Shown: positions 10,674 to 42,938 of the stretch, one piece after another
How the letters are laid out: each line of letters starts with the position of its first letter
Numbering within the stretch: position 1 is the first letter of the stretch
NCBI GenBank assembly: GCA_024643405.1
Contig: JAHENA010000013.1
Span: 1 to 46,517 of the forward strand
Reading direction: 5' to 3'
Length of the DNA stretch: 46,517 bases
Source: Flavobacteriales bacterium
GTDB taxonomy: Bacteria; Bacteroidota; Bacteroidia; Flavobacteriales; Flavobacteriaceae
Translations under genes and position numbers: made by a program
Notes under the pieces: generated by a model
Told to the model about the DNA's origin: nothing
Databases searched by the model: none
Seen by the model: only the letters and a program-made list of their open reading frames with translations

Positions 10674-10697
10674 CTTGAAGATTAATGCTTTTTGGCA

Positions 10698-11846: not shown

Positions 11847-11855
11847 GGCTTTTAT

Positions 11856-14071: not shown

Positions 14072-17263
<3,192 letters not shown>

Positions 17264-25382: not shown

Positions 25383-26807
25383 TTAGTTTTGATTTTGTTT
25401 TTTAAATCGATTTGGATGCTTTTCACCATATTCTTTATCATATCCTAAACCTAAAAAAACAGGTGTAATCATTTGTGAATTCCATTTCTCATACTGATTC
25501 TTTAATTCATTCAAAGACTCTGTGTTATTTTGAATTAAAGTATCATCTTCACCTATATTTTCATTAAGATTGAATAATTTTACACCATGCTTTAATCCAA
25601 TAATCTTGTCTCCTGAGCTATTTCTAATGGCGTAATTTTCCTGATCAAATTTTCTCCAAAACAATAATTCATGAGGTTTTTCATTATTATCGCCAGTTAG
25701 GTAAGGAATCAAATTAACGCCATCTAATTTGTTTTTTGTTTGAATAATTTTTTGAGTTTGGACAATAACAGTTGAAAAAATATCTAATGAAATAATAGGA
25801 GAATCAAAAACAAGGCCTCCAGAAATTTTTTTTGGCCATTTCATAGCGAATGGTATGCGTATACCCCCTTCAAAAACATCTCCTTTTCCTCCTCTTAACA
25901 AGCCGTTGTCTGAACCATTTGTTTTTTCAGGGCCACCATTATCGGACAAAAAGAAAACAATAGTATTTTCGCTTAGATTTAACGCCTCAAGTTTATCCAA
26001 TATTATACCTACACCATCATCTACAGCACTCACCATGGCCGCATAAGTTTTACGTTTTGGGTCTTGAATGTTATCAAAACGATTTAAATATTTCTCTGTA
26101 GCTTGTAGAGGGGCATGTGGGGCATTATAGGCCAAATACATGAAAAACGGTTGGTTCTTATATTTTTCAATATAATTCACTGCTTCTCGAGATAAAGCAT
26201 CTGTTAAATACGCCTCTTCTTCAACCCGTATGTTATTTCTTAATAATTTTGTTCTGTATGGATCAAATTGGGCTTTAACTTCATATTCATTCTGCAGCGT
26301 CCAATTCTCAGGAAAATACTCATGACCTCCGCTTAGAAACCCAAAAAAATCATCAAATCCTCTATTTAATGGTCGCAAAGATTCATGTGCTCCTAAATGC
26401 CATTTTCCTAAAACTACTGATTTATAATTTGCCTTTTTTAATGCTTCAGCCAAAGTCTCTTCCGTTAATGGCAATCCCATATTGGGATCATTTGGGGCGA
26501 ATAATGGATTTCTACTAAAACCAAATCGGTCTTGATATCGTCCCGTTATTAATCCTGCCCTACTTGGCCCACAAACGGCATAACTCACATAAGCATTTGT
26601 GAATTTAACTCCTTGTGAAGCTATTTTATCAATATTAGGCGTTGGAATATCAAGACATCCATTGAATCCTACATCAGCATATCCCATATCATCAGTGAGT
26701 ATGATAATAATATTTGGTGATGATTGTGAGTTACTAGAAATATTTTGGGCTGCACCAAAAAGCATGCCTAAAGCAAACAAAAGAGATAACAACATTTTCT
26801 TTTTCAT
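25383..26807 (-). CDS. S1 sulfatase, secreted (sulfatase 4)
   Basis: 474 residues. Unlike the other three in this run it has an SPI-type signal peptide (cleavage near GAAQ) and no lipobox, so it should be soluble in the periplasm. Asp39-Asp40 in IIILTDDMGYADVGFNG, formylglycine Cys79 in AVCGPSRAGLITGRYQDRFG. The CGPSR variant still keeps Cys, Pro, Ser and Arg. GKWHLGAHESLRPLNRGFDDFFGFLSGGHEYFP and FLSDNGGPEKTNG are conserved. The RYQxRFGF and FGFLSGG motifs are shared with sulfatase 5 on the other arm, so the two are close relatives. First gene of the minus-strand arm. Confidence 0.91.
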   Translation of the reverse strand: MKKKMLLSLLFALGMLFGAAQNISSNSQSSPNIIIILTDDMGYADVGFNGCLDIPTPNIDKIASQGVKFTNAYVSYAVCGPSRAGLITGRYQDRFGFSRNPLFAPNDPNMGLPLTEETLAEALKKANYKSVVLGKWHLGAHESLRPLNRGFDDFFGFLSGGHEYFPENWTLQNEYEVKAQFDPYRTKLLRNNIRVEEEAYLTDALSREAVNYIEKYKNQPFFMYLAYNAPHAPLQATEKYLNRFDNIQDPKRKTYAAMVSAVDDGVGIILDKLEALNLSENTIVFFLSDNGGPEKTNGSDNGLLRGGKGDVFEGGIRIPFAMKWPKKISGGLVFDSPIISLDIFSTVIVQTQKIIQTKNKLDGVNLIPYLTGDNNEKPHELLFWRKFDQENYAIRNSSGDKIIGLKHGVKLFNLNENIGEDDTLIQNNTESLNELKNQYEKWNSQMITPVFLGLGYDKEYGEKHPNRFKKQNQN

Positions 26808-27144: not shown

Positions 27145-30100
27145 ATGAAAAGAGTATTAATAATTATCACATTCCTTCTCCGTATAAGCGTTTTTGCTCA
27201 AGAAAACGATATTAACTATGTGGTTGATTTCATCACTACAAAACAGGGGTTGTCTCATAATTATGCATCGAGTATTGTAAGTGATGATTTAAACATGAAG
27301 TGGATAGGAACTGAAAATGGTATTACAAAATTTAATGGATATGATTTTGAGTATATCAAGCCTAGTGCTGAATATGAGGAATTATTAAATGAAAACATTG
27401 AGGTGCTTTTTATGGATGAAGAATCAAATATATGGATAGGCACAAAAAGTGGAGGTGTATCTTACTTAGATATTAAAAGTAATCAAGTAAATAGCTTTAA
27501 TAATTTAATAGACCTAGCCAAAGAAGGGGATTTAAGAATCACAGCCCTTTCACAAGACCTTAATGGTAACATATGGATTGGCACCTGGAAAGATGGTGTT
27601 TTTGTGATTGATTTTAAAAACAATAAGCTCATAAAACATTACAATTCTAACCAAATAATTTATAGTATTATCAAAGATTTTAAAGGTAATATGTGGTTTG
27701 GCAGTGGTAACAAATTAAACTTTTATAACCCTGTAAACGACAAAATAAAAACATACACAATAAAAGGACAATTAACAGATATACTTTCTGATCCAAGCCG
27801 AAACAAAATTTGGTTAGCATCATCTGCTCAAAATAGCATGCTATATAGCTATAATTATTATACAGAGTCAATTGATGAATTAGAAACGGCCGTAGTTAGC
27901 GACTTTGCAAAAAAACTTTCTCTTGATGAATATAATAGAATTTGGATTGGCACCTGGGGTAAAGGTGTTTATAGAAGTAATGAAAATCTTTCAAAGTTCA
28001 GTAAAATCAACTTAATTTCTAATAATACTGATAAAACAAGCGGGAATTATAATACCGTTTTAAGCATCCATCATGATAAAAATAATGTGACTTGGCTTGC
28101 GACAGCTAATGGAGGTGTCGTAAAATTATTAGAAGGTAATGGGTTTAAAAACGCGAATACTTTAATTACTAACAATGACTTAAAGGGATATATTAATTGT
28201 ACTAGTATATATAAAAATGAGGAAAACATATACATAGGCACTTTATTTAAGGGGCTTTATTTTGGAAAGGATTTTTCTTCTTTAACACAAATAAAAGAAA
28301 TAGGAAACGTAAAAATTAATGTGCTCTACGAAAACAATCAAAAACTATTTATAGGCACTCAATTTGCCTTCTATATTTATGACCTTAATTTAAAACAAAT
28401 CGTTTTCTCTACTAAATTGTTAAATAAAGTTACTGCTTTCCTTGTTGATAATAATGATTTATTCATTGGTACACAGCAGCAAGGCCTTGCGATAGTTGAT
28501 TTAAATACTATTAATAATCCAGATTCTTTTAAAATATATTCTGAAGATTTGAAAGATGACAAAAAAATAGAAAGCAACCGGATTACTGGTATAAAAAAAG
28601 ATCAAAATAACAACATATGGATTAGCACTTACAATGGGTTACATTTATTTGATAAAAACAAACAATTATTTGTTCATCAATCCAATTTTTTAGAACAAAA
28701 ATTACCAAGTGTCATAATTAATGCAATAGCCATCATAAAAAATAATATTTGGTTGGCTACACCAAGTGGATTGATAAAAGTTAATTATAGTAACAACAAA
28801 TTAATTATAGAAGATACTGTTTCTAAAAATGATGGTCTTAACAGTGATTTTATATGTTCTGTTACCTTAGATGACAAAGATAATTTATGGTTAACTACAC
28901 ATACTGAAATTGTTAAATATAGTATGGCTGATAAATCTATCATCAATTATGGCGACATTAATGGTGTTAGATCAACCTCATTTAACAATAGAAGTTTTTA
29001 TAATTATAACAATGAGCTTATTTATTTTGGCGGAATTGATGATATCACTTTTTTCAATCCTTCAAACATTAAGGATTTTAATGTGGTTCCAGAAATTATT
29101 TTTACCTCACTTAGAGTTAACAATGAGTTAATTGAATATAAACCTGGCAATAATATTTTAGATAAAAACTTCAACTATGCTGATAAAATAAAACTAACTC
29201 ACAAAGACAATTTCTTTTCAACAAGATTTATTGCCAATGATTACTTGGGTAAGTTAAATATAAAATACCGGTATTCATTAGATGGTTATCAGGACCAATG
29301 GATAGATTTACAAAACAGAAATGAAATAAACTTTGCAGGTCTTTCCCCGGGCAATTATGTGCTGAAAGTTGAGGCCTCTAGAGATAATCAAAATTGGAGC
29401 AATCCTAAATCAATAAACATTATATTGTTAGGTTCACCATGGAAAAGCAGTTTAGCACTGTTTATTTATTCGCTTATTATACTAGCTATCATCATTTACC
29501 TTGTTAGGTCAAATAATTATAAATTAAAATTAAAAAACAGTCTTGAAATTGCTAGAATAGACAAAGAAAAGGAAATAGAATTAACCGAAGCCAAATTAAA
29601 CTTTTTTACCAATATTTCTCATGAATTTAGAACGCCTCTTACTTTAATTATTGGCCCATTAAAAGAGCTTTTAGAGAGCGACAATTTAACCCCAAAAGCT
29701 CATAAAAACCTAAATTATATAGACCGAAATACCAATAGACTTCTCAATTTAATCAATCAATTATTAGATTTTAGAAAAGCGGACCATGGCCTTTTAAGAC
29801 TCAATGTTTCTCAAGGCAACTTTGTAAGATTTTCTGAAGAAGTTCATTTGTATTTTAAAGAAGCTGCCAAAGCAAAAAATATAAAATATAAATTCAAACC
29901 TGCCAAAGAAGAAATTGTTTTTCCATTTGACAGAAACAAAATGGAAATTGTTTTATGCAATTTATTGTCAAATGCTATTAAATATACTCATCAAGATGGT
30001 AAAATTGTGATGCAAATTGATAGTGATGACACCTCCTGCATTATTTCCATAAAAGATTCAGGCATTGGAATGAATTCATCAGACCTGGACAAAATATTTG

Positions 30101-31149
30101 ACCGGTTTTTTCAAATAAAATCTGCCAATACCGCAAGAATGATTGGTAGTGGTATAGGTTTGTCTTTTTCAAAAAAAATTATTGAATTGCATTATGGAAA
30201 TATCGCTGTAAAAAGTGAACTTAATGTAGGAACTGAGTTTGTAATTAAACTTTCCATGGATCCCAGTTTATATGAAGGGGAAATCAATGAAGATTTTATG
30301 ACTTCAGATAATATAAAGGGCTATAAAACAAATGATGAATTAGGTGCTCAAATTGAAACTTTCAATATTAATGAAAAGGAACATTCTGTGCTCATAATAG
30401 ATGATAATTTAGAAATATTAAGTTACTTAAAGGAAATATTATCAGACACCTATTCAATTATAGAAGCTAATAATGGTGATACAGGTTTTGAAAAAGCATC
30501 TAGCCAAATTCCAGACTTAATTATCAGCGATGTCATGATGCCTGGTAAAGACGGCATAACACTTTGTAAAGAATTAAAATCACAAATTACCACCTCACAT
30601 ATACCAATCATTTTGCTAACCGCAAGAACTTCAACAGTATTTGAAATTGAAGGATTAAAAACGGGTGCTGACGATTATGTTACCAAACCATTTAATGCTA
30701 AAGTTATAAAGGCAAGAATTGCAAGTCTTTTAGAAAACAGAGAAAAACTGAGAGCATATTTACTTAATAAGGTGCGTTTTGAACCAACAGCTTCACAAAT
30801 AGAAAATGACACAGATACTGAAAACGCGTTTATTCATAAAGCGATGTTATTGGTTGAAAACAATTTAGACAATGCTACTTTTGGTATTGAAAATATGGTT
30901 GATGAGTTGAACATGAGTCAGTCCACTTTATACAGAAAAATAAAATCGTTAACAGGACTCTCGTTAACGGCCTTTATAAGATCAGTCAGATTAAAAAAAG
31001 CGGCACATCTTATTTTAACTTCAGACTTAAATCTGAACGAGATTGCTTATGAAGTGGGCTTCAATGATTACAAATATTTTAAAATATCCTTTAAAAAACA
31101 ATTCAATTGTTTGCCTTCAAAATATAAGGAGCTAATGAATAAAAATTAG
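27145..31149 (+). CDS. Hybrid two-component system sensor/regulator (HTCS)
   Basis: 1334 residues combining a sensor kinase and transcription factor in one protein. Order: signal peptide (1-18), about 14 propeller repeats with WIGT-type motifs (about 30-690), a Y_Y_Y domain (about 690-760), one transmembrane helix (about 769-790), HisKA with His826 in FTNISHEFRTPLT, the ATPase domain with DSGIGM and GSGIGLSFSKK, a receiver domain with Asp1129 in IISDVMMPGKDG and Lys in VTKPF, and an AraC-type helix-turn-helix (about 1240-1334). Such proteins bind a glycan breakdown product in the periplasm and switch on the adjacent PUL. Its position between the two divergent arms makes it the obvious local regulator. 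Confidence 0.95.
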   Translation: MKRVLIIITFLLRISVFAQENDINYVVDFITTKQGLSHNYASSIVSDDLNMKWIGTENGITKFNGYDFEYIKPSAEYEELLNENIEVLFMDEESNIWIGTKSGGVSYLDIKSNQVNSFNNLIDLAKEGDLRITALSQDLNGNIWIGTWKDGVFVIDFKNNKLIKHYNSNQIIYSIIKDFKGNMWFGSGNKLNFYNPVNDKIKTYTIKGQLTDILSDPSRNKIWLASSAQNSMLYSYNYYTESIDELETAVVSDFAKKLSLDEYNRIWIGTWGKGVYRSNENLSKFSKINLISNNTDKTSGNYNTVLSIHHDKNNVTWLATANGGVVKLLEGNGFKNANTLITNNDLKGYINCTSIYKNEENIYIGTLFKGLYFGKDFSSLTQIKEIGNVKINVLYENNQKLFIGTQFAFYIYDLNLKQIVFSTKLLNKVTAFLVDNNDLFIGTQQQGLAIVDLNTINNPDSFKIYSEDLKDDKKIESNRITGIKKDQNNNIWISTYNGLHLFDKNKQLFVHQSNFLEQKLPSVIINAIAIIKNNIWLATPSGLIKVNYSNNKLIIEDTVSKNDGLNSDFICSVTLDDKDNLWLTTHTEIVKYSMADKSIINYGDINGVRSTSFNNRSFYNYNNELIYFGGIDDITFFNPSNIKDFNVVPEIIFTSLRVNNELIEYKPGNNILDKNFNYADKIKLTHKDNFFSTRFIANDYLGKLNIKYRYSLDGYQDQWIDLQNRNEINFAGLSPGNYVLKVEASRDNQNWSNPKSINIILLGSPWKSSLALFIYSLIILAIIIYLVRSNNYKLKLKNSLEIARIDKEKEIELTEAKLNFFTNISHEFRTPLTLIIGPLKELLESDNLTPKAHKNLNYIDRNTNRLLNLINQLLDFRKADHGLLRLNVSQGNFVRFSEEVHLYFKEAAKAKNIKYKFKPAKEEIVFPFDRNKMEIVLCNLLSNAIKYTHQDGKIVMQIDSDDTSCIISIKDSGIGMNSSDLDKIFDRFFQIKSANTARMIGSGIGLSFSKKIIELHYGNIAVKSELNVGTEFVIKLSMDPSLYEGEINEDFMTSDNIKGYKTNDELGAQIETFNINEKEHSVLIIDDNLEILSYLKEILSDTYSIIEANNGDTGFEKASSQIPDLIISDVMMPGKDGITLCKELKSQITTSHIPIILLTARTSTVFEIEGLKTGADDYVTKPFNAKVIKARIASLLENREKLRAYLLNKVRFEPTASQIENDTDTENAFIHKAMLLVENNLDNATFGIENMVDELNMSQSTLYRKIKSLTGLSLTAFIRSVRLKKAAHLILTSDLNLNEIAYEVGFNDYKYFKISFKKQFNCLPSKYKELMNKN

Positions 31150-31288: not shown

Positions 31289-34200
31289 ATGAAAGTATAT
31301 TTATTTTATTTTCTGCTTTTAATCCCGATGGGACAATTAGCTTTTTCTCAAAATACTATTACTGGAACGGTAACAGACCCTAGTGGTCAACCACTTCCTG
31401 GAGCTACGGTATTAATTGAAAAAACGAACAGAGGAACAACAACAGATTTTGATGGCGCTTTTAATATTGCAGCCTCAGAGGGTGAAATACTAGTGATTTC
31501 TTTTGTTGGTTTCACTTCAGTCAAGGTTACTGTAAATAACAGTAAAACTTATAATGTAACACTTCAGGAAGATGCTGCACTTTTAGATGAAGTAGTGGTA
31601 GTTGGTTACGGTTCACAAAAAAAGGTAAACTTAACAGGTTCGGTTGCAACGGTTACTTTCAGAGAGGAAGTCAACCAACCTGTAACAAACTCAGGACAAT
31701 TATTGTATGGTAGGTTTTCAGGTGTTCAATTAACCCAATCTTCAGGTAACCCTGGCGCAGATGGGTCTTCAATAGTTATTAGAGGTATTGGAACTTTTGG
31801 AAATAGTACACCTTTAATAGTAATAGACAATATTCAATACGATGATTTGGCGGCTTTTAACAGTTTAGCTCCTTCAGATATTGAAAGCGTATCTGTTTTA
31901 AAAGATGCATCAGCAAGTGCCATTTATGGTGCAAGAGGTGCTAACGGGGTTGTTTTAGTGACTACAAGAAAAGGTGCCAACGATAAATTTGAAATTAGCT
32001 ATAATGGTTATTATGGAGTTCAAGACGCCACTGTTAAACCAGACTTTCTTGGATCTTTAGATTATGCCACCTTAATGAATGAAAAATTTAGAAATGAAGA
32101 TGGTCCCGGATTTATTCCAAGGTATACAGATACGCAAATTGAGGCTATAAGAACAGGATCCTTACCAGATCAATTCGCAAATACCTCTTGGGCTGATGAA
32201 GTGCTTACCCAAGCCTCTATACAAAATCATAATTTCGCATTCTCAGGTGGTAATGATAAAACAACCTACAGGCTCTCTCTTGGTTATTTAGGTCAGGATG
32301 CTATTGTTAAAAGTAAATTTAATAGTGAACGCTATAATCTAAGTTTTAACCTTAATTCTAAAATGAATGATTGGTTTACTTTAAGCAGTGTAACTAATTC
32401 TTTTTGGAAAAGAAATGAAGGTCCTTCAGGGGGTCAAAATGCTTTTGATGGTGATAATGGTATCATTTATTCTTTGCAAAGAACAGCACCTACTATTCCT
32501 GCTTTTTACAGTAATGGAATGTATGGTATTGTAGACGGCGCTTGGCTAAACTCTAATCCATCTTTCTTAACTCAAAACCCATTAAGACGTGGTTATTTAG
32601 GTAATTATGAACAAGACATTATTAATATCAGCCAACGAATTGGGTTGACTTTTAAATTATCAGATGATTTTACTTTTGAAACCAGTGGAAGTGCCAATAT
32701 AATTTATAATAATACCTCAGATTTTAGTCCTACCGCAGTACTTTATGATTATGATGGTAATATTGTCATTCAAAGTCAATTGAATAACCTTTCTAATTCA
32801 ACCAATTTTGAATACAGGTTGTTAAATGAAAATATTTTTAGATACAATAAGACCTTTAATAAAGTTCATGATTTGAGTGCGCTTTTAGGTCATTCCATTA
32901 CATATCTTAGAAACGATGGTTTTAGTGGACAAGTAAGTGGCTTTCCAACAAATAATTTAGAAGAGTTTAATGCCGGAGGTATTACAGATCCTTCAGTAAA
33001 TGGAGGGGCTTATGAAGAAGTGACCCAATCATTTTTTGGAAGAATTAATTATAATTATGATGGTAAATACCTAGCTGAATTTAATTTAAGACGTGACGGA
33101 TCCTCAAAGTTTGGAACAACTAATTTGTACGGTAACTTTCCTTCAGCATCTGTTGGATGGAACATTTCTAAAGAAAAATTCTTAGAAAGTGCCGATTTTA
33201 TAACCAATTTAAAATTAAGAGCCAGTTGGGGTATAAGCGGAAATGATAGGATTGGAAACTATATTCCATATCAAACTTATGACCCAGGACAAGATTATGT
33301 TTTAGGCAATGATAACGTAGTTGTTGGTGTTGCCATTACATCTTTAGCCAATCCGTTTATAAGATGGGAGGAAACAGAGCAATATGATATTGGTTTAGAC
33401 CTGAGTCTTTTTAAAAATAAAGTGGAGTTAGTTGCTGATTATTTTAACAGAAACAGTACGGATATCTTATATACTAACTTCCCTATACCAAATACATTAG
33501 GTGTTGCTAATTTAGGCGCTCAAAATGCGGCTTCAATGGTTAACCAGGGATTCGAACTTGGAATAAATTACAGAGGGAATGTTGGTCAATCAAAATTCAC
33601 TCTGGGAGCTAATTTTACCAAATTAATAAAAAATGAAGTGACAGGTCTGGGTGATGGTGGTGAAGAAACCATATCGAACATTAACATCATTAGAATTGGA
33701 TCACCATTTAGATCTTATTACGGTCTGCAAGCAATAGGTGTTTTTCAAACATTAGAAGAAATAGCCAATTCGCCAACACAATACGGAAATGCCAATACCG
33801 CCCCAGGAGATTTGAAATATGCTGATGTATCAGGTCCAGATGGCGTTCCTGACGGGATAGTAAATGATGATGACAGAACCATTATTGGTAATCCTAATCC
33901 GGATTTATTAGTGAATTTTAATGGATCATTTGAATATAAAAATTTTGATATTAACTTTTTATTTCAAGGGGTTAGCGGCGTTGACAGATTGTTGATGGGT
34001 AATGGAAATTTACCTATGGCTGATGACCGAAGTAATGCGCTAAGCTATTGGATCAATAGATGGACTCCTGATAATCCTAGTAATAACTTACCTCGAGTAG
34101 GGGGGCAAAATAATACAAGAGTATCGTCTTTTTATGTTCAAGATGCGTCTTATTTAAGGCTCAAATCCTTAGAACTGGGTTATTCATTGCCGGACGATGT

Positions 34201-34369
34201 GACTAGAAAAATTAATATTAATAAATTAAGAATTTTTGTTGGCGCTCAAAACCTGTTTACTTTCACAGGGTTGGAATATTTTGATCCTGAAGGCGCATCT
34301 GGTAATCAAAGTAATAGAAATGCCCCACTTTACAAAACAATTACTTTTGGTGTAAACTTAAAAATATAA
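31289..34369 (+). CDS. SusC-like TonB-dependent outer-membrane transporter
   Basis: 1026 residues. A signal peptide ends near LAFSQ, followed by a carboxypeptidase-regulatory-like domain (about 23-95, ITGTVTDPSGQPLPGATVLI), the TonB-box region DEVVVVGYG (about 100-108), the plug (about 110-230, with VLKDASASAIYGARGANGVV) and a 22-strand barrel ending in KTITFGVNLKI. It imports oligosaccharides with its SusD partner, powered through TonB. 139 bases separate it from the regulator gene; susD starts 5 bases after its stop codon. Confidence 0.97.
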   Translation: MKVYLFYFLLLIPMGQLAFSQNTITGTVTDPSGQPLPGATVLIEKTNRGTTTDFDGAFNIAASEGEILVISFVGFTSVKVTVNNSKTYNVTLQEDAALLDEVVVVGYGSQKKVNLTGSVATVTFREEVNQPVTNSGQLLYGRFSGVQLTQSSGNPGADGSSIVIRGIGTFGNSTPLIVIDNIQYDDLAAFNSLAPSDIESVSVLKDASASAIYGARGANGVVLVTTRKGANDKFEISYNGYYGVQDATVKPDFLGSLDYATLMNEKFRNEDGPGFIPRYTDTQIEAIRTGSLPDQFANTSWADEVLTQASIQNHNFAFSGGNDKTTYRLSLGYLGQDAIVKSKFNSERYNLSFNLNSKMNDWFTLSSVTNSFWKRNEGPSGGQNAFDGDNGIIYSLQRTAPTIPAFYSNGMYGIVDGAWLNSNPSFLTQNPLRRGYLGNYEQDIINISQRIGLTFKLSDDFTFETSGSANIIYNNTSDFSPTAVLYDYDGNIVIQSQLNNLSNSTNFEYRLLNENIFRYNKTFNKVHDLSALLGHSITYLRNDGFSGQVSGFPTNNLEEFNAGGITDPSVNGGAYEEVTQSFFGRINYNYDGKYLAEFNLRRDGSSKFGTTNLYGNFPSASVGWNISKEKFLESADFITNLKLRASWGISGNDRIGNYIPYQTYDPGQDYVLGNDNVVVGVAITSLANPFIRWEETEQYDIGLDLSLFKNKVELVADYFNRNSTDILYTNFPIPNTLGVANLGAQNAASMVNQGFELGINYRGNVGQSKFTLGANFTKLIKNEVTGLGDGGEETISNINIIRIGSPFRSYYGLQAIGVFQTLEEIANSPTQYGNANTAPGDLKYADVSGPDGVPDGIVNDDDRTIIGNPNPDLLVNFNGSFEYKNFDINFLFQGVSGVDRLLMGNGNLPMADDRSNALSYWINRWTPDNPSNNLPRVGGQNNTRVSSFYVQDASYLRLKSLELGYSLPDDVTRKININKLRIFVGAQNLFTFTGLEYFDPEGASGNQSNRNAPLYKTITFGVNLKI

Positions 34370-34374
34370 AAAAT

Positions 34375-35922
34375 ATGAAAAAGATTTTAATAGCAATTTG
34401 TATTGCATTTACATTGACGAATTGCAGTGATGATTATGTTAGACGATCTTCACTGACACAGATAGCCGAAAACAATTTCTGGCAGAGTGAAGCCGATGCC
34501 TTTTTGGCGCTTAACGGCGTGTATTCTGCGCTTCAAAGTAAATCCATGTATGGGGGACATCTTAATGGATGGCAAGGTATCCCAGGGTTTGACGGCTTAG
34601 GTGATAATGCTTTTAATCAATATAAGTGGGAAGGACCTGGTTTGTTCATGGAAGGAAGTGCGGATCCTGCAAGTGGCCCCATATTAAGTTTTTGGACAGA
34701 TCATTATCGCGGTATTACCAGAGTCAATGCAGTCATAAAAAATGTGCAAGAAATATCAGAAGATTTAATTCCTAACGAAACTAAAAATGAGTTGTTGGGA
34801 CAAGCCTATTTTTTAAGAGCGTTATTTTATTTTAATATCGCTGTTTATTTTGAAGAAGCCCCATTAATTACGGAGCCACAAACACTTGAAACTGCCTATG
34901 TACCAAAGAATACTTATGCAGAAATAACAGACCAAATTGTTGAAGATTTAAAATTTGCGATTGAGTATTTACCAACAAGTTATTCTGGTGATATATATGG
35001 CTATGCTACAAAAGGTGCTGCGTTAGGACTTTTTGCTAGAGTACAACTATACAATAAACAATATGATGGACTATTTGGAGTATTAGATTTAACTAATCAA
35101 GCCATGAGTTTGGGGTATTCTTTAAATTCTAATTATGCTGATTTGTTCTCTATTGCTGGAGAAACATCGCCTGAAATTGTGTTTGCCGTGCGTTTTTTAA
35201 GAGGAGACAATACCAATAGTGGTGAAACATTCTCAGGAACCTATAATGGGACTCCTAAAGTGGACCAAAGACCCATGCCAAATTTAGTTAATGATTATTA
35301 TTGTACTGATGGGTTGCCTGTAACAAGCTCTCCCTTGTTCAATCCAGCAGATCAGAGACTAAACAGAGATCCAAGAGCCATTGCAACTATTTATTTTAAA
35401 GGAGATACTTATTATACAGATCCTGTTAGAGTATTTCCTGGAAATGGCCCAACCACTTACGGAATGAGGAAATATATTAGAACGGGTCCAGATGCTGAGG
35501 GCAATGCCTCCTTTGGAGAAGGTTCACAGGATTTTTACTTAATAAGATATGCCGATATTTTGTTAATGCGCGCTGAAGCCATGGCAGAAACTGGTGATGT
35601 TTCTGGAGCAACCGCACTAGTTAATGAAGTTAGAAATCGCGTGGGAATGCCAAGTGTAGAAAGTGTTGAAGGTGCTGTTGGTCAAGCACAAATGATTCAA
35701 ATTGTAAGACATGAAAGACGTGTAGAATTAGCATTGGAAGGTTTACGCTTTATGGATTTAAAACGGTGGGGTGAAATTGAACAAGGCTTTCAAAGAGCTA
35801 TTTCAGATCCTGTTAGTTCTTACAATCCACAATATTTAGGTGGAAGATCTGAAGTTTTTCCAATTCCACAATCTGAACTGGATGTGAATCCTAATTTAAA
35901 ACAAAACCCAATATGGCAATAA
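34375..35922 (+). CDS. SusD-like outer-membrane glycan-binding lipoprotein
   Basis: 515 residues, lipobox Cys17 (TLTNC). It is the surface lid of the SusC transporter and binds the glycan. Family features: NFWQSEADAFLALNGVYSAL near the N-terminus, GQAYFLRALFYFNIAVYFE with the helix pairs, the DILLMRAEAMAETGD repeat, RVELALEGLRFMDLKRWG, and the terminal VFPIPQSELDVNPNLKQNP. It is immediately downstream of susC and 17 bases upstream of the GH128-like gene, so these three form one transcript. Confidence 0.96.
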   Translation: MKKILIAICIAFTLTNCSDDYVRRSSLTQIAENNFWQSEADAFLALNGVYSALQSKSMYGGHLNGWQGIPGFDGLGDNAFNQYKWEGPGLFMEGSADPASGPILSFWTDHYRGITRVNAVIKNVQEISEDLIPNETKNELLGQAYFLRALFYFNIAVYFEEAPLITEPQTLETAYVPKNTYAEITDQIVEDLKFAIEYLPTSYSGDIYGYATKGAALGLFARVQLYNKQYDGLFGVLDLTNQAMSLGYSLNSNYADLFSIAGETSPEIVFAVRFLRGDNTNSGETFSGTYNGTPKVDQRPMPNLVNDYYCTDGLPVTSSPLFNPADQRLNRDPRAIATIYFKGDTYYTDPVRVFPGNGPTTYGMRKYIRTGPDAEGNASFGEGSQDFYLIRYADILLMRAEAMAETGDVSGATALVNEVRNRVGMPSVESVEGAVGQAQMIQIVRHERRVELALEGLRFMDLKRWGEIEQGFQRAISDPVSSYNPQYLGGRSEVFPIPQSELDVNPNLKQNPIWQ

Positions 35923-35939
35923 TATTTAAATCATATACT

Positions 35940-37277
35940 ATGAAAAAATACATCTTATTATTACTCACAGTAATCTTGTTTACTAGCTGTGAAAAAAACG
36001 TTATTGGAGATTTTGAACCCTCACCTTATTTTGGAACTGGTGATGAGACTCCGATTAATATAAGTAAAAAGGGCGTTGCCTTTACAAACAAAACTAAATC
36101 CTGGTCTCATAAAACCAGTGATCTGGCTGCCCATTGGATGTACAGCTGGGGCAATATACTAAGAGAAGAAATACCAGAAAATGTTGAATTTGTGCCCATG
36201 TTTTGGGGAAAGGGATCTGTAACTGATGACAACATTACCAGAATAAAACAACTGATTGATGAAGGTAAAGTGAAATATGTTTTAGGTTTTAATGAACCGG
36301 ATGGTGTAACTCAAGCCAATATGACGGTTGATGAAGCCATTGCATTGTGGCCAAGGTTAGAAGAGTTAGGTGTGCCGCTAGGATCTCCTGCAACGGTTGC
36401 ATATGGTAACCCATGGATGACAGAGTTTATGCAACGAGCTGATGCCTTAGGTTTAAGAGTTGATTTTGTTGCTATACATAGTTACGGCGGGTCTAATGCT
36501 TTAAACTTCGTTAATATTTTAAAACAAGCACATGAATTATATAACAGACCTATTTGGGTAACTGAATTTGCGGTAGCCGACTGGAATGCCACCACTCCTG
36601 AAAATAACAGATATACCGAAGCCGAAGTGATTCAGTTTATGCAAGATGCTACCACTGCTATGAACTCTATTGACTGGGTGGAACGTTATGCCTGGTTTGA
36701 TGGTAGTAATGCCCCTTTAGCAACCTCTTCATTATTTGACGAGGAGGCTACTATAACTACTTTAGGTGAAGTATATGCAGCCATTAATCCTAATGAAAAT
36801 ATTGGCCCAGGTCAAGACACAGAATACACGCCACCCGTAGATTTAGACGAACTGCTTGTAAATGGAGGTTTTGAAGTAGGTCTGATTGCACCATGGCAAG
36901 GTTTTAAAAACGGGGTCGTCACTGCTGACGTAACGGAACCACATACTGGAAATTTTTCTGGTAACATACAAAATAATGACGGGTCATTATTTCAAGTTGT
37001 GGGTGTTGAACCAGGAAAAACATATATTTTAAAATTTTGGTCCAAATGGCGAGAAGCCGTACCAAATACGTTTACAGGAACCTTGAGAAATAATGACGGA
37101 AACGCCTTGTTATTTACTTTACCAGGAATGCCACAAACTGCTGATTGGACTGAATCTACCTATGAGTTTACGGTGCCTGATGGGGTTACTAATTTAAAAA
37201 TAGTCTTTTATAAAGGACAAGTAAATCCAACATTCCCACCATTTTTTATGGACGATGTCTCACTTAAACTTAAATAA
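35940..37277 (+). CDS. GH128-like glycoside hydrolase with C-terminal CBM, surface lipoprotein
   Basis: 445 residues. The frame is open nine codons further up (35913), overlapping susD, but ATG 35940 gives a proper lipoprotein signal with Cys17 (LFTSC). The catalytic part (about 45-285) resembles the Asl1-like/GH128 barrel: KSWSHKTSDLAAHWMYSWGN, VEFVPMFWGKG, VLGFNEPDG with Glu119 as likely acid/base, VAIHSYGG, and WVTEFAVADW with Glu209 as likely nucleophile. A CBM4/9-like beta-sandwich follows (about 300-445, from LLVNGGFEVG to FMDDVSLKLK). Characterised GH128 enzymes are endo-beta-1,3-glucanases. In this galactan-type PUL it could act on a different beta-1,3 backbone; that is inference. It holds the place usually taken by the surface glycan-binding protein. 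Confidence 0.8.
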   Translation: MKKYILLLLTVILFTSCEKNVIGDFEPSPYFGTGDETPINISKKGVAFTNKTKSWSHKTSDLAAHWMYSWGNILREEIPENVEFVPMFWGKGSVTDDNITRIKQLIDEGKVKYVLGFNEPDGVTQANMTVDEAIALWPRLEELGVPLGSPATVAYGNPWMTEFMQRADALGLRVDFVAIHSYGGSNALNFVNILKQAHELYNRPIWVTEFAVADWNATTPENNRYTEAEVIQFMQDATTAMNSIDWVERYAWFDGSNAPLATSSLFDEEATITTLGEVYAAINPNENIGPGQDTEYTPPVDLDELLVNGGFEVGLIAPWQGFKNGVVTADVTEPHTGNFSGNIQNNDGSLFQVVGVEPGKTYILKFWSKWREAVPNTFTGTLRNNDGNALLFTLPGMPQTADWTESTYEFTVPDGVTNLKIVFYKGQVNPTFPPFFMDDVSLKLK

Positions 37278-37355: not shown

Positions 37356-38198
37356 ATGAAAAAAATTACATTTTTAATGACATTATTAACCATCTCTTTA
37401 GGGTTTGGACAAAACCTTGTAGTAAATGGTGACTTTGAAACGGGCTCTTCAGTAGCTGGATGGAACCAAGGTGTTACTGGAGGTAGCTATGGTACAGATG
37501 CAGTTATAGGTGCCGACGTTGTTGGAGCTGGAACTACACATAGTGGCGACTATGCGGGAAGAGCCCTAAATTGGGGTACCGGTGCCACTTCATTTCTGCA
37601 AGGTGTTAATGTAACTCCAGGCGAAACCTATATCGTTAATTTTTGGTTTACATTTTCGGATTTTACTCCGACTACAAACGTTGTGATTAGAAATTTTACA
37701 GGTGATGTGGCACAAAACCCTAACTTAACTTTAACTCCTATTGTTCCTGATAATGGCAGAAATGCCGTTAGTGATGTCAATTATGGTTGTGGTATTGCAA
37801 ACCAAGATCCTTCCTATGCCTGGAAGGAAGCAAAATTTTCATTTACAGTACCCGCTGGTGTAACAAAAGTAAGATTTCAATATTATAATGGTAATGTAGG
37901 TTATTACAAATATATAGATGACGTCTCAATAGTTTTAGACGCAACGGCTTCACTTAAAGATTTAGCCCAATTTAATTTTAATGCCTATCCAAACCCTGCA
38001 AAAGATGCTATCAATTTGTCGGCATCTAAGAATATAGATAAAATAGAAATTTACAGCCTTCTTGGCCAACAGGTATTAACCAAAGAACTTAACAGCAAAA
38101 ATGCAAACATTAATGTTTCAAGCCTTGCAAAAGGGGTTTATGTGGTTAAAGCACAGATTGAAGATGCCGTAGGGTCTTATAAATTTATTAAAGAGTAA
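37356..38198 (+). CDS. Secreted CBM protein with T9SS sorting domain
   Basis: 280 residues with signal peptide (ends near FGQ). One CBM4/9-like beta-sandwich (about 20-190) begins NLVVNGDFETG and ends YYKYIDDVSIVL. It mirrors the CBM of the preceding GH128-like protein (LLVNGGFEVG ... FMDDVSLKLK), with matching TPGETYIVNFW/EPGKTYILKFW strands. The last 75 residues are a type A T9SS sorting domain: FNAYPNPAKDAINL, IEIYSLLGQQV, LAKGVYVVKAQ. No catalytic domain is seen. It is likely a glycan-binding protein delivered to the surface or the medium by type IX secretion, complementing SusD. Confidence 0.85.
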   Translation: MKKITFLMTLLTISLGFGQNLVVNGDFETGSSVAGWNQGVTGGSYGTDAVIGADVVGAGTTHSGDYAGRALNWGTGATSFLQGVNVTPGETYIVNFWFTFSDFTPTTNVVIRNFTGDVAQNPNLTLTPIVPDNGRNAVSDVNYGCGIANQDPSYAWKEAKFSFTVPAGVTKVRFQYYNGNVGYYKYIDDVSIVLDATASLKDLAQFNFNAYPNPAKDAINLSASKNIDKIEIYSLLGQQVLTKELNSKNANINVSSLAKGVYVVKAQIEDAVGSYKFIKE

Positions 38199-38278: not shown

Positions 38279-38302
38279 GCCTCTTAAAGGAACCCATTGC
38301 TT

Positions 38303-39736
38303 ATGATGAATCCTAAAAAAATAATATATCTTTTTTTGTGCAGCTTTTTTGTACTCTTTTTTTCATGTAAAAAAACGAATAATAATGAGAGCTTGTCAGA
38401 GTTATCTCATCAAAAAAAACATCTAAAACCTAATATTATTGTCATTATTGCTGATGATGCTGGTTATTTAGATTTTGGATTTATGGGAAGCAAAGATTTG
38501 AATACGCCTAACATTGACAATCTTGCCCAAAGTGGTGTCATGTTTTCAGATGCTCACGTTACAGCCTCCGTCTGTGCGCCGTCAAGAGCTGGTCTCATCA
38601 CAGGAAGGTACCAACAGCGTTTTGGGTTTGAAGCCAACGGAACCGGATACGGAGATTCTGGAGATATTGGTTTATCAAATGATGTGGTTACCATAGCCGA
38701 TGTTTTAAAAAAAAATAATTACAAAACCATTGCTATTGGAAAATGGCATTTAGGAGCCACCCCTTCTGATCATCCTAACCAAAGAGGGTTTGATGAGTTT
38801 TATGGTTTTTTGGCTGGAGGCAGATCTTATTTTCCACTGAAAAACCCTTCAAAAGAACTGAGGCTTCAGCAAAATGGCAAGCGCGTAACATTTGACGGGT
38901 ATTTAACCGATGTATTAGGTGATCGTTCCGTAAGTTTTGTCGAAGAAAATAAAGACCAACCCTTTTTTATGTATTTAGCTTACAATGCGGTGCACACCCC
39001 AATGGAAGCTAAAGAATCAGATCTGTTAAAATATAAAAATCATCCAAGACAGTATTTGGCTGCCATGACTTGGTCTTTAGATGAAAACATAGGGAAACTT
39101 CGCAACAAATTAAAGGAATTAAATATTCTAGATAATACGCTTATCTATTTTATTAGTGATAATGGTGGTGCTCATAATAACAGTTCTGAGAGCGGCCCTT
39201 TAAAGGGTTGGAAAGGCAATAAATTTGAAGGAGGCCATCGCGTGCCTTTCATTATGAGTTGGCCAGATCAAATTAAACCAAATCAAAAATTCGATGGTTT
39301 AACGTCATCATTAGATATTTTTACAACGTCTATGGCAGCTGCACAAATTAAGCCAGATGAGGAACTAATTTTAGATGGTGTTAATTTATTACCATATATA
39401 AATAATGAAAAACAAGGAAATCCACACCAAGAATTGTATTGGAGAAAACTGGAAGAATCTGCAGCCAGAATAGGTGATTTCAAGCTGATTAATTTAAAAG
39501 ATTTTGGTTCTACTATGTACAATTTATCTTTTGATTTAGGAGAAATTGAAGATATTTCATCACAAGACACGGCTACATATCATGAATTATTAAAAAAGTT
39601 TTCAATCTGGGAAGCAAACATGATTGCACCCCATTGGCGTGAAGGGAAACCATGGGAAGATGTCACCTATTATATCCATCAAAGATTAATGGAAAACAAA
39701 CCTGTTTTATATAAAGAGCCTAGAAATAAAAAATAG
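38303..39736 (+). CDS. S1 sulfatase, lipoprotein (sulfatase 5)
   Basis: About 478 residues with lipobox Cys22 (VLFFSC, counted from ATG 38303). Asp51-Asp52 lie in VIIADDAGYLDFGFMG: the usual Leu after the Asp pair is Ala. Formylglycine Cys91 is in SVCAPSRAGLITGRYQQRFGFE. GKWHLGATPSDHPNQRGFDEFYGFLAGGRSYFP and YFISDNGGAHNNSSESGPLKG are conserved. It is closest in pattern to sulfatase 4 of the minus arm. A Shine-Dalgarno-like AAAGGA at 38286-38291 lies 5 bases before a TTG at 38297 and 11 before ATG 38303; the start could be TTG 38297, ATG 38303 or ATG 38306. It follows a terminator, so it should have its own promoter. Confidence 0.9.
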   Translation: MMNPKKIIYLFLCSFFVLFFSCKKTNNNESLSELSHQKKHLKPNIIVIIADDAGYLDFGFMGSKDLNTPNIDNLAQSGVMFSDAHVTASVCAPSRAGLITGRYQQRFGFEANGTGYGDSGDIGLSNDVVTIADVLKKNNYKTIAIGKWHLGATPSDHPNQRGFDEFYGFLAGGRSYFPLKNPSKELRLQQNGKRVTFDGYLTDVLGDRSVSFVEENKDQPFFMYLAYNAVHTPMEAKESDLLKYKNHPRQYLAAMTWSLDENIGKLRNKLKELNILDNTLIYFISDNGGAHNNSSESGPLKGWKGNKFEGGHRVPFIMSWPDQIKPNQKFDGLTSSLDIFTTSMAAAQIKPDEELILDGVNLLPYINNEKQGNPHQELYWRKLEESAARIGDFKLINLKDFGSTMYNLSFDLGEIEDISSQDTATYHELLKKFSIWEANMIAPHWREGKPWEDVTYYIHQRLMENKPVLYKEPRNKK

Positions 39737-39810: not shown

Positions 39811-41289
39811 ATGAAGCGCATCCTTTACATTTTTTCATTTCTACTGCTTTTCTCAAACTGTAAAAATGCTTATTACGTGGATGCATTTTCTGGAAACGAT
39901 TCTAATTCAGGGAAATCTCCAGATAAGGCCTGGGCTTCATTAAAAAAAGTAAATAAAATGGTTTTTCAACCGGGGGATAAAATTCTTTTTAAATCAGGAA
40001 CCACATATTACGGACAATTAGAACCCCAAGGCAGTGGTATTAAAAGAAAACCAATCCTTATTGATCGCTTCGGAAAAGGTAAAAACCCAGCTATTCATGG
40101 TGAAGGTCAGCAATTACATACCCTTTTACTTGAAAATATTGAATTTTGGGAAATAAAAAATTTAGAAATAACAAATACTGGAAAAGAACGTGTCCCACAT
40201 AGAAGAGGTGTCATTATAAGAGCCGAAAATTTTGGCGATTGCCATCATATTATTTTAGACAGCTTAGAAATTCATCATGTTAATGGCAGTTTGGTTAAAA
40301 ATGAGGGTGGTGGTAGTGCCATTTTTTGGCAAAATTCGGGGGATGATATTCCAACTCGATTTGTTGATTTGGTTATTCAGAATAGCTATTTGCATAACTG
40401 TGGTCGAAATGGTATTAACTCAACAGGAAATATAAATAGAGATAAGTGGTATCCCAGTACTGGTGTCATGATCAGAAATAATTTATTGGAAAACATTCCT
40501 GGTGATGGGATAGTGCCCATTGGCTGTGATGGCGCCATCATTGAACATAATGTGCTTCGCGATTTTCCTGATATCCTCTCCCATGAAGAAGCTGCTGCAG
40601 GTATTTGGCCTTGGAGCTCTGACAATACTTTAATTCAATATAATGAAGTAAGCGGACACAAAGCAAAGTGGGACGGACAGGGCTTTGACTCTGATTATAA
40701 TTGTATAGGCACTACCATTCAATACAACTACAGTCACGATAATTATGGCGGGTTTTTATTGATTTGTAATAATGGTTATACTTATAAGCAACCAAAGAAT
40801 ATTGGAACCAAGCAAACAATTATTAGACATAATATTAGTATTAATGATGGGATTCGGCCATATCCCACAAAACGAGAAGGGGATTTTTGTCCGGTTTTTC
40901 ATATTACAGGACCTACTGAAAATACCCATATTCATAATAACATTATTATTCTTCCTAAAAGGACATTAGATAATACCATTGTGAAAATGGACAACTGGGG
41001 TAACCTCTGGCCTGCAAATACAGTATTTGAAAACAACATTTTCTTATCTGAAGAACCTAGCAAATTTGTATTTGGAGAAGATTCGCAAACCCATTTTAAC
41101 AATAATGTATTTTATGGAGAAATTAAAAATCTCCCAAAAGACCCCAACGCTCTTTTTAGCAAACCCAATTTTATAAATGAAAATGTAAGAGGCAGTGGTT
41201 TTGAAATATTGAAAAACTTTATGTTGATTAAAAACGATTCTCTTGTTAATAAAAACAGGGGTGTCTCAGAAAAAATACTTTTAAAATAA
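39811..41289 (+). CDS. Right-handed parallel beta-helix lipoprotein (1), possible polysaccharide lyase or hydrolase
   Basis: 492 residues, lipobox Cys17 (LLFSNC). It begins with the YYVDAFSGNDSNSGKSPDKAW segment typical of extracellular beta-helix proteins, then PGDKILFKSGTTYYG. Coil repeats of the N-x-x-x-N-N type run from about 75 to 440 (IIRAENFGDCHH, VMIRNNLLENIPGDG, AIIEHNVLRDF, TLIQYNEVSGH, TIQYNYSHDNYGG, IIRHNISINDG, THIHNNIII, VFENNIFL). I cannot assign it to a named CAZy family. Candidate surface residues are in WPWSSDN and GQGFDSDYNC. It is paralogous to the next gene, 5 bases away. A lyase or endo-hydrolase role is a guess from fold and context. Confidence 0.75.
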   Translation: MKRILYIFSFLLLFSNCKNAYYVDAFSGNDSNSGKSPDKAWASLKKVNKMVFQPGDKILFKSGTTYYGQLEPQGSGIKRKPILIDRFGKGKNPAIHGEGQQLHTLLLENIEFWEIKNLEITNTGKERVPHRRGVIIRAENFGDCHHIILDSLEIHHVNGSLVKNEGGGSAIFWQNSGDDIPTRFVDLVIQNSYLHNCGRNGINSTGNINRDKWYPSTGVMIRNNLLENIPGDGIVPIGCDGAIIEHNVLRDFPDILSHEEAAAGIWPWSSDNTLIQYNEVSGHKAKWDGQGFDSDYNCIGTTIQYNYSHDNYGGFLLICNNGYTYKQPKNIGTKQTIIRHNISINDGIRPYPTKREGDFCPVFHITGPTENTHIHNNIIILPKRTLDNTIVKMDNWGNLWPANTVFENNIFLSEEPSKFVFGEDSQTHFNNNVFYGEIKNLPKDPNALFSKPNFINENVRGSGFEILKNFMLIKNDSLVNKNRGVSEKILLK

Positions 41290-41294
41290 ATATT

Positions 41295-42938
41295 ATGTCT
41301 ATTAAATTATTGCTTTTATATAGCATCATATACCTTTCATGTCTAAATCATTTAATGGCAACAGATTATTATGTCCATCCAAAATTTGGCAAAGACACTA
41401 ATACTGGATTATCAAAAGAACAGGCCTTTAAAACTTTAGAGCAGGCTTCAACCTTACATTTTATGCCCGGTGATAGGTTGTTATTAGCTTCCGGAAAAAC
41501 ATATTATGAAACTTTGAATCTTATCTATAAAAATGGAAACAATAAAAATCCTATTATTATTACAACGATTCCATGGGAAGTATCTGAAAATTTAATCCCT
41601 GCAATAATAGATTTTAAAGGAAAAGCTAATGGGATTTTAATTGAAGACAGTAGTTATATTGAAATTTCAAATATTCAGTTAACAGCAAATGGGCAATATG
41701 AAGACTCTGAAACAGCATCAAAAATGAGATGCGGTGTGTTGGTTAATAATGAGAGTGCTATTTTAATGGAACATATTGAATTGAAAAACATTAACATTTA
41801 TGATGTTTTTTATGAATCATATGGATTTAAAAGAGGGAAAAAAGAAGTTAAAACGGCTAACGGTACACAAAAATATGGTTGGGGCATTAGGGTAATAAAT
41901 AATAATGCAAATCATATCATTAAACATCTAAAAATTGAAGATTGCCGCGTTCAGGATGTTTCACATACAGGAATTAAATTAACAGGAAATAAAAAAAATA
42001 TCTCAAATATTGAAATATCAAATAATACAATTGAAAAAACTGGTGGCCCTGGAATTCAAATGTCAGAAGTAGAAACAGTATATGTTTCAAACAACTTAGT
42101 TTCTCATTCTGGAAGTAATGATGACACAAGAAAATGGGGGCGTGGTAGCGGACTATGGACCTGGGGGTCTTCAAAAGTGTTGATAGAGAAAAATAAATTT
42201 CTATATGCCAATGGTCCAGGTGATTCAGTTGGTGCACATATAGATTTTAACTGTGATAATATTGTTTTACAATATAATATTAGTGCATTTAATGCAGGTG
42301 GTTTTTGTGAGATTCTAGGAAATAATTATAATTGTTCTTATCGTTATAATATCAGTATCAATGACGGGCATAGAATTAAGGGAGTTGAAGGCGCCTTTCA
42401 AGAAGGAAAAATTTTATGGTTAAGTGGTTATCAAGGAGAACAAAAAGCACGTAAGGGTCCGGTAAATTCTTATTTTTATAATAACACTATTTATGCAGAT
42501 AGCTCTGTAGTTGCGAAAATAGCTATTGATAACACAAGTAGTGGCATTTTAATTGCGAATAATATTTTTTATTTAGAAGGCGATTCTAAGGCTGTCCTAG
42601 GAGACCAGTATAAGCCTGACACAGAATCTGAAGAGGTAGCGTATAATGTGTTTTTTAAGAACAATTTATTTTTAAATAAAAACAACTGGCCAACAGCTAT
42701 TGGAATAAAGGATATTGCTCCGCTTTATGGAAATCCAGAGTTTGTTCATAAAGGAGGTATTGAAAGTAAAGATTATATTCCAGAAAATGTGAACTTAGTA
42801 CAACATAAGGGGATTGAAATTACCTTATTGCCAAATGATTCTGTTGGATTGATGCATTCGTTAAAACTCAACAAAGATATTTTAGGAAATCCTATTTCAG
42901 AACAACCAAGTTTGGGAGCCATAGAACCAATGCATTAA
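41295..42938 (+). CDS. Right-handed parallel beta-helix protein (2), paralog of the preceding gene
   Basis: 547 residues with an SPI-type signal peptide (ends near LMATDYY). The layout is the same as in the preceding protein: YYVHPKFGKDTNTGLSKEQAF, FMPGDRLLLASGKTYYE, then helix coils from about 80 to 465 (IEISNIQLTANG, ISNIEISNNTIEKTGGPG, VYVSNNLVSH, VLIEKNKFLYANGPGD, IVLQYNISAFNAGG, YRYNISINDGHR, SYFYNNTIY, ILIANNIFY). The pair WTWGSSK/GAHIDFNCDN corresponds to WPWSSDN/GFDSDYNC in the first protein and may mark a shared binding site. No named family recognised. It probably forms an operon with the first gene and with the sulfatase remnant downstream. Confidence 0.75.
   Translation: MSIKLLLLYSIIYLSCLNHLMATDYYVHPKFGKDTNTGLSKEQAFKTLEQASTLHFMPGDRLLLASGKTYYETLNLIYKNGNNKNPIIITTIPWEVSENLIPAIIDFKGKANGILIEDSSYIEISNIQLTANGQYEDSETASKMRCGVLVNNESAILMEHIELKNINIYDVFYESYGFKRGKKEVKTANGTQKYGWGIRVINNNANHIIKHLKIEDCRVQDVSHTGIKLTGNKKNISNIEISNNTIEKTGGPGIQMSEVETVYVSNNLVSHSGSNDDTRKWGRGSGLWTWGSSKVLIEKNKFLYANGPGDSVGAHIDFNCDNIVLQYNISAFNAGGFCEILGNNYNCSYRYNISINDGHRIKGVEGAFQEGKILWLSGYQGEQKARKGPVNSYFYNNTIYADSSVVAKIAIDNTSSGILIANNIFYLEGDSKAVLGDQYKPDTESEEVAYNVFFKNNLFLNKNNWPTAIGIKDIAPLYGNPEFVHKGGIESKDYIPENVNLVQHKGIEITLLPNDSVGLMHSLKLNKDILGNPISEQPSLGAIEPMH

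Follow-up and report, generated by a model that had tools for sequence, protein, structure and literature searches.

Gene context suggests a galactan substrate for a GH128 lipoprotein encoded in a sulfatase-containing PUL of a Flavobacteriales bacterium

Which polymer is cut by a GH128 enzyme whose gene lies among genes for the release and metabolism of galactose? The question is raised by a 46,517-nucleotide stretch of DNA from a Flavobacteriales bacterium (hereafter the window), in which positions 35940-37277 of the forward strand form an open reading frame for a predicted surface lipoprotein of 445 residues. A first-pass annotation had proposed an endo-beta-1,3-galactanase-like activity within a glucanase family, or else a divergent subfamily or a PUL that handles mixed glucan and galactan. 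Our analysis indicates that the first of these is the best reading of the gene context, and that the protein is probably a retaining surface endo-hydrolase of sulfated beta-1,3-D-galactan with partner enzymes that would depolymerise this glycan to galactose.

The gene starts 17 bases downstream of the end of the SusD gene at 35922, so that it directly follows SusD as previously noted. An alternative in-frame ATG at 35913, which would lengthen the protein, overlaps the SusD stop, and 35940 is the better start because the signal peptide MKKYILLLLTVILFTSC begins there; the lipoprotein signal (...LFTSC, with Cys17) was judged by eye. The Pfam model PF11790 (Glyco_hydro_cc, which corresponds to the GH128 family) matches residues 45-279 (36072-36776) over all 237 model positions with an E-value of 4.6e-55 and a score of 187 bits, relative to a curated cut-off of 21. 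An AlphaFold2 model gives a confident barrel and a confident C-terminal CBM (mean pLDDT 88, pTM 0.67). The best 21 structure matches of this model in VIA-align are all GH128 entries, as expected for the (beta/alpha)8 barrel of the family, and the predicted structure matches AmGH128_I far above chance (Z 29, rmsd 2.2-2.3 A over 231 residues, 37-38% identity). AmGH128_I is also the nearest solved relative by sequence (E 2e-42). The window protein is thus a GH128 member, as the earlier description of a GH128-like barrel on a surface lipoprotein had it. Its fold is ordinary for GH128, and its setting is unusual and well conserved.

The CBM, which the first-pass annotation did not mention, is a CBM_4_9 domain in Pfam (residues 304-426, positions 36849-37217, E 4.1e-14). 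When folded alone (pLDDT 93), its top structural match is the porphyran-binding CBM 8xmz (Z 16.8, 2.1 A over 133 residues, 23% identity), with an EndoMA1 domain, CBM16 and CBM4-2 close behind (Z 15-16), while the CBM4 entry 1gui, which we take to be a laminarin binder, follows at Z 13.7. Comparison with the 8xmz type by phmmer gives an E-value of 2.5e-4. With structural runners-up within about 1-1.5 Z, the match of this modelled domain to a porphyran binder lends slight support to a sulfated galactan, no more.

The catalytic apparatus is that of the family. The NEPD motif starts at residue 118 and the TEF motif at residue 208, which places the two glutamates exactly at the residues first assigned, Glu119 (codon 36294..36296) and Glu209 (codon 36564..36566). 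They align with E102 and E199 of AmGH128_I, which have chain indices 96 and 193 (offset 6) and were mutated in crystal structures of that enzyme; the respective roles of Glu119 and Glu209 as acid/base and nucleophile are assigned by homology. Both glutamates, together with Asn118, His180 and Tyr182, are invariant in 30 of 30 aligned sequences, as is Trp89. A subsite comparison that takes its residues from the CBM6E complex, as described in the sections of PMC10956234 used here, shows that the -1 and negative-subsite set (Trp70, Asn118, Glu119, Gln125, His180, Tyr182, Glu209 and Trp252/Phe253) is kept in the window protein (P0001) and its 19 orthologues. The first-pass annotation had regarded conserved glucose-specific subsites, together with strong activity on laminarin only, as the mark of a plain glucanase. 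On the residue side of that expectation, the catalytic and negative-subsite residues do match those of glucanases, and it is the plus side that differs, most clearly in Gly122 and also in a shorter loop. The negative-subsite residues are common to glucanases and, taken alone, do not tell a glucose from a galactose specificity. Trp215, weighed as a distinguishing residue, was set aside; all 20 orthologues keep it, but Phe takes its place in AmGH128_I, so that the distinction is not clean.

The surrounding genes also bear on the substrate. Upstream of the GH128 gene on the same strand lie a hybrid two-component regulator (HTCS) with Reg_prop, HisKA, HATPase_c, Response_reg and HTH_18 domains (27145..31149), a SusC-like TonB-dependent transporter (31289..34369) and the SusD-like surface glycan-binding protein, identified by Pfam (34375..35922). 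Downstream, also on the plus strand, lie a secreted protein that carries a T9SS sorting domain and matches CBM_4_9 slightly below the Pfam cut-off (37356..38198), sulfatase E with C93 in its CxPSR motif (38297..39736), and two beta-helix proteins (39811..41289 and 41295..42938). The minus strand encodes sulfatases D (25383..26807), C (23817..25370), B (22272..23690) and A (20673..22265), a GH2 glycosidase (18198..20666), a BD-FAE-type esterase (17271..18179), a LacZ-type GH2 beta-galactosidase with WSLGNEAG and QCEYAH motifs (14072..17251; 6sd0, 8e-236), a GH43 enzyme (12930..14057), the Leloir genes GalM, GalK and GalT (9654..12758) and a GH3 glycosidase that is possibly in the cluster (7064..9307). 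The GH43 enzyme, the most telling of these neighbours, is an exo-beta-1,3-galactanase homologue whose best solved relatives are 6eug, 6euh and 6eui (E 5e-111) together with the galactan 1,3-beta-galactosidases 7bys, 7byv and 7byx. Its assignment to subfamily 24 is by similarity to 6eug-type structures, for which GH43_24 is presumably the subfamily label. Judged from these homologies, with a GH43_24-type homologue as the marker of a beta-1,3-galactan PUL beside the LacZ-like GH2, GalK/GalT/GalM and five sulfatases, the PUL is galactan-type, in agreement with the earlier description. Apart from the two beta-helix proteins, the remaining enzymes of the window are exo-type by family, sulfatases or an esterase. 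As no GH16 was found in the window, the GH128 barrel is the only predicted endo-type barrel there.

The sulfatases refine this picture. All five keep the C-x-P-S-R motif, and comparison with solved structures covered two of them. The nearest solved matches of sulfatase C are 7ozc, a GalNAc-6-O-sulfatase and S1_15 sulfatases (a label taken from PDB chain names), and those of sulfatase E are exo-4S-kappa-carrageenan and iota-carrageenan sulfatases. These similarities suggest 6-O- and 4-O-sulfated 3-linked galactose. The likeness of sulfatase E to carrageenan sulfatases, and of the CBM to a porphyran binder, led us to weigh an agar- or carrageenan-type substrate. Such a substrate is less likely: the bonds cut by known GH128 enzymes are beta-1,3, and beta-1,3-galactan is the specific target of GH43_24, whereas agar and carrageenan polymers alternate other linkages. 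The likely natural substrates are instead sulfated 3-linked galactans of green algae or glycans of the arabinogalactan-protein type. For example, the sections of PMC7550628 drawn on here describe 3-linked beta-D-galactans sulfated at C-4 and C-6 in Codium, and a 3-linked beta-D-galactan sulfated mainly on C-6 in Bryopsis, both of which fit the sulfatase types of C and E.

The beta-helix proteins are distantly related to lacto-N-biosidases, protein 1 by matches to 7v6m (5.6e-32) and 6kqs (3e-27) and protein 2 by a match to 6kqs (2e-8), and the relatives of protein 1 are presumably of the GH136 type. Both keep a D-x6-D motif, at residue 288 in protein 1, which aligns with an Asp pair of 6kqs that we take to be catalytic. 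Lacto-N-biosidases release a disaccharide, and by sequence similarity proteins 1 and 2 could release a Gal-beta-1,3-linked one.

Conservation of this context was followed in a search of genome contigs that found 33 loci encoding relatives, of which 19 form the orthologue set together with the window (n=20); L028 and L032 enter no alignment, their ORFs being unresolved. The hosts are Flavobacteriaceae, Balneolaceae and other Bacteroidota. The neighbourhoods searched by tblastn span 5.7-61 kb, most with extended flanks but many on one side only. SusC and SusD of the same type (at least 51% identity) are present in 20 of 20 neighbourhoods, the window included, and sulfatases in 19, the exception being a 5.7-kb contig (L024). 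A LacZ-type GH2 occurs in 14 of 20 (two at 38%), beta-helix protein 2 in 13 of 20 including the window (at least 52%), and GalK with GalT in 5 of 20; the GH3 gene is unmatched in the other 19. Seven of the 20 neighbourhoods contain the GH43_24 type, 17-36 kb away from the GH128 gene, and 13 lack it. In whole-genome searches a GH43_24-type match was absent from 9 of the 19 relatives' genomes, including that of at least one named isolate, Aestuariivivens sediminis (L012), and this enzyme is therefore not a required partner. In addition, individual PULs of the set encode a GH29 fucosidase, GH35, SASA and CE2 esterases, SSF symporters or a small GH16, which suggests that the glycan is branched and in some cases bears fucose and acetyl groups.

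Several variations on the gene order were also observed. Between sulfatase E and beta-helix protein 2, where the window has beta-helix protein 1, three loci (L007, L010 and L011) have a CBM_4_9-GH16-T9SS enzyme (for example, L010:13856-15388, in the orthologous PUL of Yeosuana aromativorans). The GH16 of L010 matches solved GH16 structures only weakly, at 8e-13 for the best of them. The orthologues of L013 and L017 are separated from SusD by a second GH128. A second, distant GH128 is encoded in the same PUL at L101:11943-14246, L102:575-2872, L098:4095-7967, L100:4095-7967 and L108:2153-4018, the window being without one; those of L098, L101, L102 and L108 carry a Cys-containing insert after NEPD/NESD.

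In the strongest alternative, the protein is simply a typical GH128 endo-beta-1,3-glucanase placed by chance in a galactan PUL, where it might for example open beta-1,3-glucan mixed with galactan in algal walls. Such an enzyme would account for AmGH128_I being the closest solved relative and for the conservation of the negative-subsite tryptophans, Gln125, His180, Tyr182 and both glutamates. Additionally, the GH128 entries among the 50 matches listed are titled glucanases or oligosaccharide binders, including the curdlanase CBM6E, and at least one survey of marine bacteria, in the sections used here, reads GH128 as laminarinase throughout (PMC11573768). The gene content argues otherwise. On another contig the same genome has a separate cluster of beta-glucan type (G000:C48:6001-26000, or L145) with GH3, GH30, GH16 and GH2_C-like barrels and a sugar transporter; no SusC or SusD of this cluster was recognised within the 20 kb covered. 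When the genome's own proteins from this cluster were used in tblastn, GH30 and GH5-like homologues were found in 0 of the 20 orthologous neighbourhoods, GH16 similarity was weak (27-31%) and confined to five, and the only GH3 match was the window's own at 31%. The same tblastn search, which covered GH16, GH30 and GH5-like proteins with GH17 outside it, gave no match in the window, which thus lacks these signs of a laminarin PUL. The earlier suggestion that the PUL handles both glucan and galactan was accordingly dropped, as a glucan-specific partner was not found by this search. GH43_24-type genes and sulfatases are, moreover, linked to distant GH128 clades too. Taken together, we regard a glucanase as unlikely, at well below even odds, though it is the most serious competitor of a galactanase.

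Residue 122 (codon 36303..36305) was examined as a possible correlate of specificity. It occupies the position of a +1-subsite Leu or Phe in characterised GH128 glucanases, its equivalents being Phe171 in CBM6E, Leu117 in PvGH128_II and Leu in AmGH128_I; the two characterised rows in the alignment have L and F. The window protein has Gly122 after NEPD rather than a hydrophobic residue after NEPD/NEPN, which is not known to be essential. The 20 orthologues have G in 16, N in two and A in two, while all 8 sister-clade rows have L and all 6 group C rows have L or M. Among 61 GH128 rows (the fragment L035 left out, as it was from the tree, and genome copies under two handles entered once), a sulfatase or GH43_24-type match was nearby in 35 of 41 with a small or polar residue 122 and in 2 of 20 with a hydrophobic one (Fisher 1.5e-8), on context labels assigned by hand and with second GH128s sharing the neighbourhoods of the orthologues. 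For the GH43_24 type alone the figures are 13 of 41 and 0 of 20 (Fisher 0.006). However, the class of residue 122 changes only twice on the tree, and a phylogeny-aware test with independent pairs was not significant for either trait; residue 122 was therefore rejected as proof of specificity. A small or polar residue without the context is seen in L024, L113, L078, L079, L084 and L086, and Leu near sulfatases in L025 and L074. Both L113, which has the motif without a PUL marker, and L025/L074 speak against a simple residue-122 rule. Gly122 is a clade marker only, a hypothesis for mutagenesis rather than evidence of specificity.

In the tree, L113 and two paralogues join the orthologues in a single clade (90/90), whose sister is a mostly pelagic clade; a 93/84 branch holds both. 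AmGH128_I, of subgroup I, falls elsewhere, on a 98/92 branch that carries a long-branch warning, yet it is the best match by both sequence and VIA-align. The earlier suggestion of a divergent subfamily is consequently borne out in that the clade stands apart from AmGH128_I, and weakened in that supports of 90/90 and 93/84 are not the strongest and AmGH128_I is the best sequence match. Within the clade, L113:9838-11211 encodes a GH128 with the clade motif between M16 and M1 peptidase genes, outside a recognisable PUL and with no PUL marker within its 20 kb.

Twenty further GH128 neighbourhoods were compared. GH43_24-type homologues (51-53%) adjoin or stand one gene from a distant GH128 in three of them (L163, L168 and L169), which indicates that the link between GH128 and beta-1,3-galactan genes occurs more than once. 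L168 has SusC and SusD at 53% and 50% to those of the window and a sulfatase at 40%, and sulfatase matches occur in seven more neighbourhoods (L161, L162, L164-L167 and L174); neither a GH43_24 type nor a sulfatase was found in the six loci of subgroup II type (L175-L180). In L163 and L169, which belong to one genus, the order is SusC-SusD-GH128-GH16-GH43 with a GH2 in addition, SusC is at 26%, and no sulfatase was detected in these neighbourhoods. A relative of this GH16 has 6t2n and laminarinases as its best solved matches, and since the GH16 of L163 and L169 resembles laminarinases as much as anything, these could be partly glucan loci. The stretches L163:7581-14195 and L169:7714-13711, with GH128-GH16-GH43 after SusC/SusD, resemble an arabinogalactan PUL with a GH128. 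A small GH16 recurs beside a GH43_24-type gene (L101:1792-2799, L163:12224-13069 and L169:11725-12585) and is possibly an endo-beta-1,3-galactanase of its own. Group B was tried as a glucan control and proved unusable; its seven neighbourhoods showed neither galactan nor glucan markers, except for sulfatases and GH3 in L025.

Given an endo-beta-1,3-galactanase as the preferred reading, the wider proposal that GH128 is not only a glucanase family is, in our estimate, evenly balanced. It holds that endo-beta-1,3-galactanases account for at least one clade, that of P0001 and its orthologues in Bacteroidota and Balneolota, and perhaps for another, distant one whose genes lie beside GH43_24-type genes in other genomes. 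A GH128 galactanase was not found in the open-licence PMC papers searched.

A different mode of action on the same glycan is improbable, more so than a glucanase. Here the protein would cut another bond, for example in a branched, fucosylated or acetylated galactan, act as an exo-enzyme, or act only after trimming by other enzymes. The GH29, GH35, SASA and CE2 genes in some relatives' PULs do imply a complex glycan, and among the 50 matches listed the titles of the GH128 entries of subgroups III, V and VI describe exo action. Nevertheless, the characterised GH128 enzymes among the matches listed act on beta-1,3-glucan, and the position directly after SusD, the lipoprotein signal and the CBM suggest endo action on a polymer. 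That the protein is a non-catalytic surface glycan-binding protein, like the GH128 subgroup VII entries titled oligosaccharide-binding among the 50 matches listed and in keeping with its CBM, is very improbable given the invariance of both catalytic glutamates, Asn118, His180 and Tyr182 in the 30 aligned sequences.

In the mechanism that we infer for an endo-beta-1,3-galactanase, the surface-anchored GH128 protein, holding the polymer by its C-terminal CBM, would cut internal beta-1,3 bonds of sulfated beta-1,3-D-galactan with Glu119 as acid/base and Glu209 as nucleophile. The oligosaccharides would be imported by SusC/SusD, and periplasmic sulfatases would take off their 4-O- and 6-O-sulfates. 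Galactose would then be released by the GH43_24-type exo-beta-1,3-galactanase and the GH2 beta-galactosidases and enter metabolism via GalM/GalK/GalT. If this is true, a sulfated galactan would have an endo-enzyme that attacks it at the cell surface, a family of glucanases would extend to a second substrate, and a tool would be at hand for dissecting the 3-linked sulfated galactans of green algae. If the clade does cut sulfated galactan, part of the counts that equate GH128 with laminarinase in the marine survey would be wrong.

For completeness, we compare the window protein with known systems. AmGH128_I (6uaq), a subgroup I endo-beta-1,3-glucanase of Amycolatopsis mediterranei, shares its fold, both catalytic glutamates, the negative-subsite tryptophans and Gln125; the window protein differs in having Gly122 for Leu after NEPD, a shorter loop at Tyr137 (+2), a CBM, a lipoprotein signal, a galactan-type PUL and a separate branch on the tree. 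CBM6E (8j3x/8j3y), a GH128-CBM6 curdlanase of Saccharophagus degradans, likewise combines a barrel with a CBM, although the CBM differs. As far as the sections of PMC10956234 used here go, its -1 subsite (N167, E168, H245, E272 and Y247) is conserved in the window protein, while +1 Phe171 and Trp276 are replaced by Gly122 and Ala213. For the CBM the closest structure is the porphyran-binding 8xmz, by a narrow margin over other CBM modules. The sulfated arabinogalactan-protein PULs of Bacteroides plebeius are similar in their GH43_24 exo-beta-1,3-galactanase, sulfatase and GH2; in the sections of PMC8406133 used here they also carry GH145 and GH105, and no GH128 appears among their enzymes. The proposed reaction is that of the GH16_10 endo-beta-1,3-galactanases (EC 3.2.1.181), which, in the portion of PMC6827312 drawn on, belong to an unrelated family with a beta-jelly-roll fold, whereas the window GH128 is a TIM barrel. 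The window protein and its orthologues would thus, if the galactanase reading is true, represent a TIM-barrel solution to EC 3.2.1.181 besides that of GH16, for sulfated algal galactans and arabinogalactan proteins.
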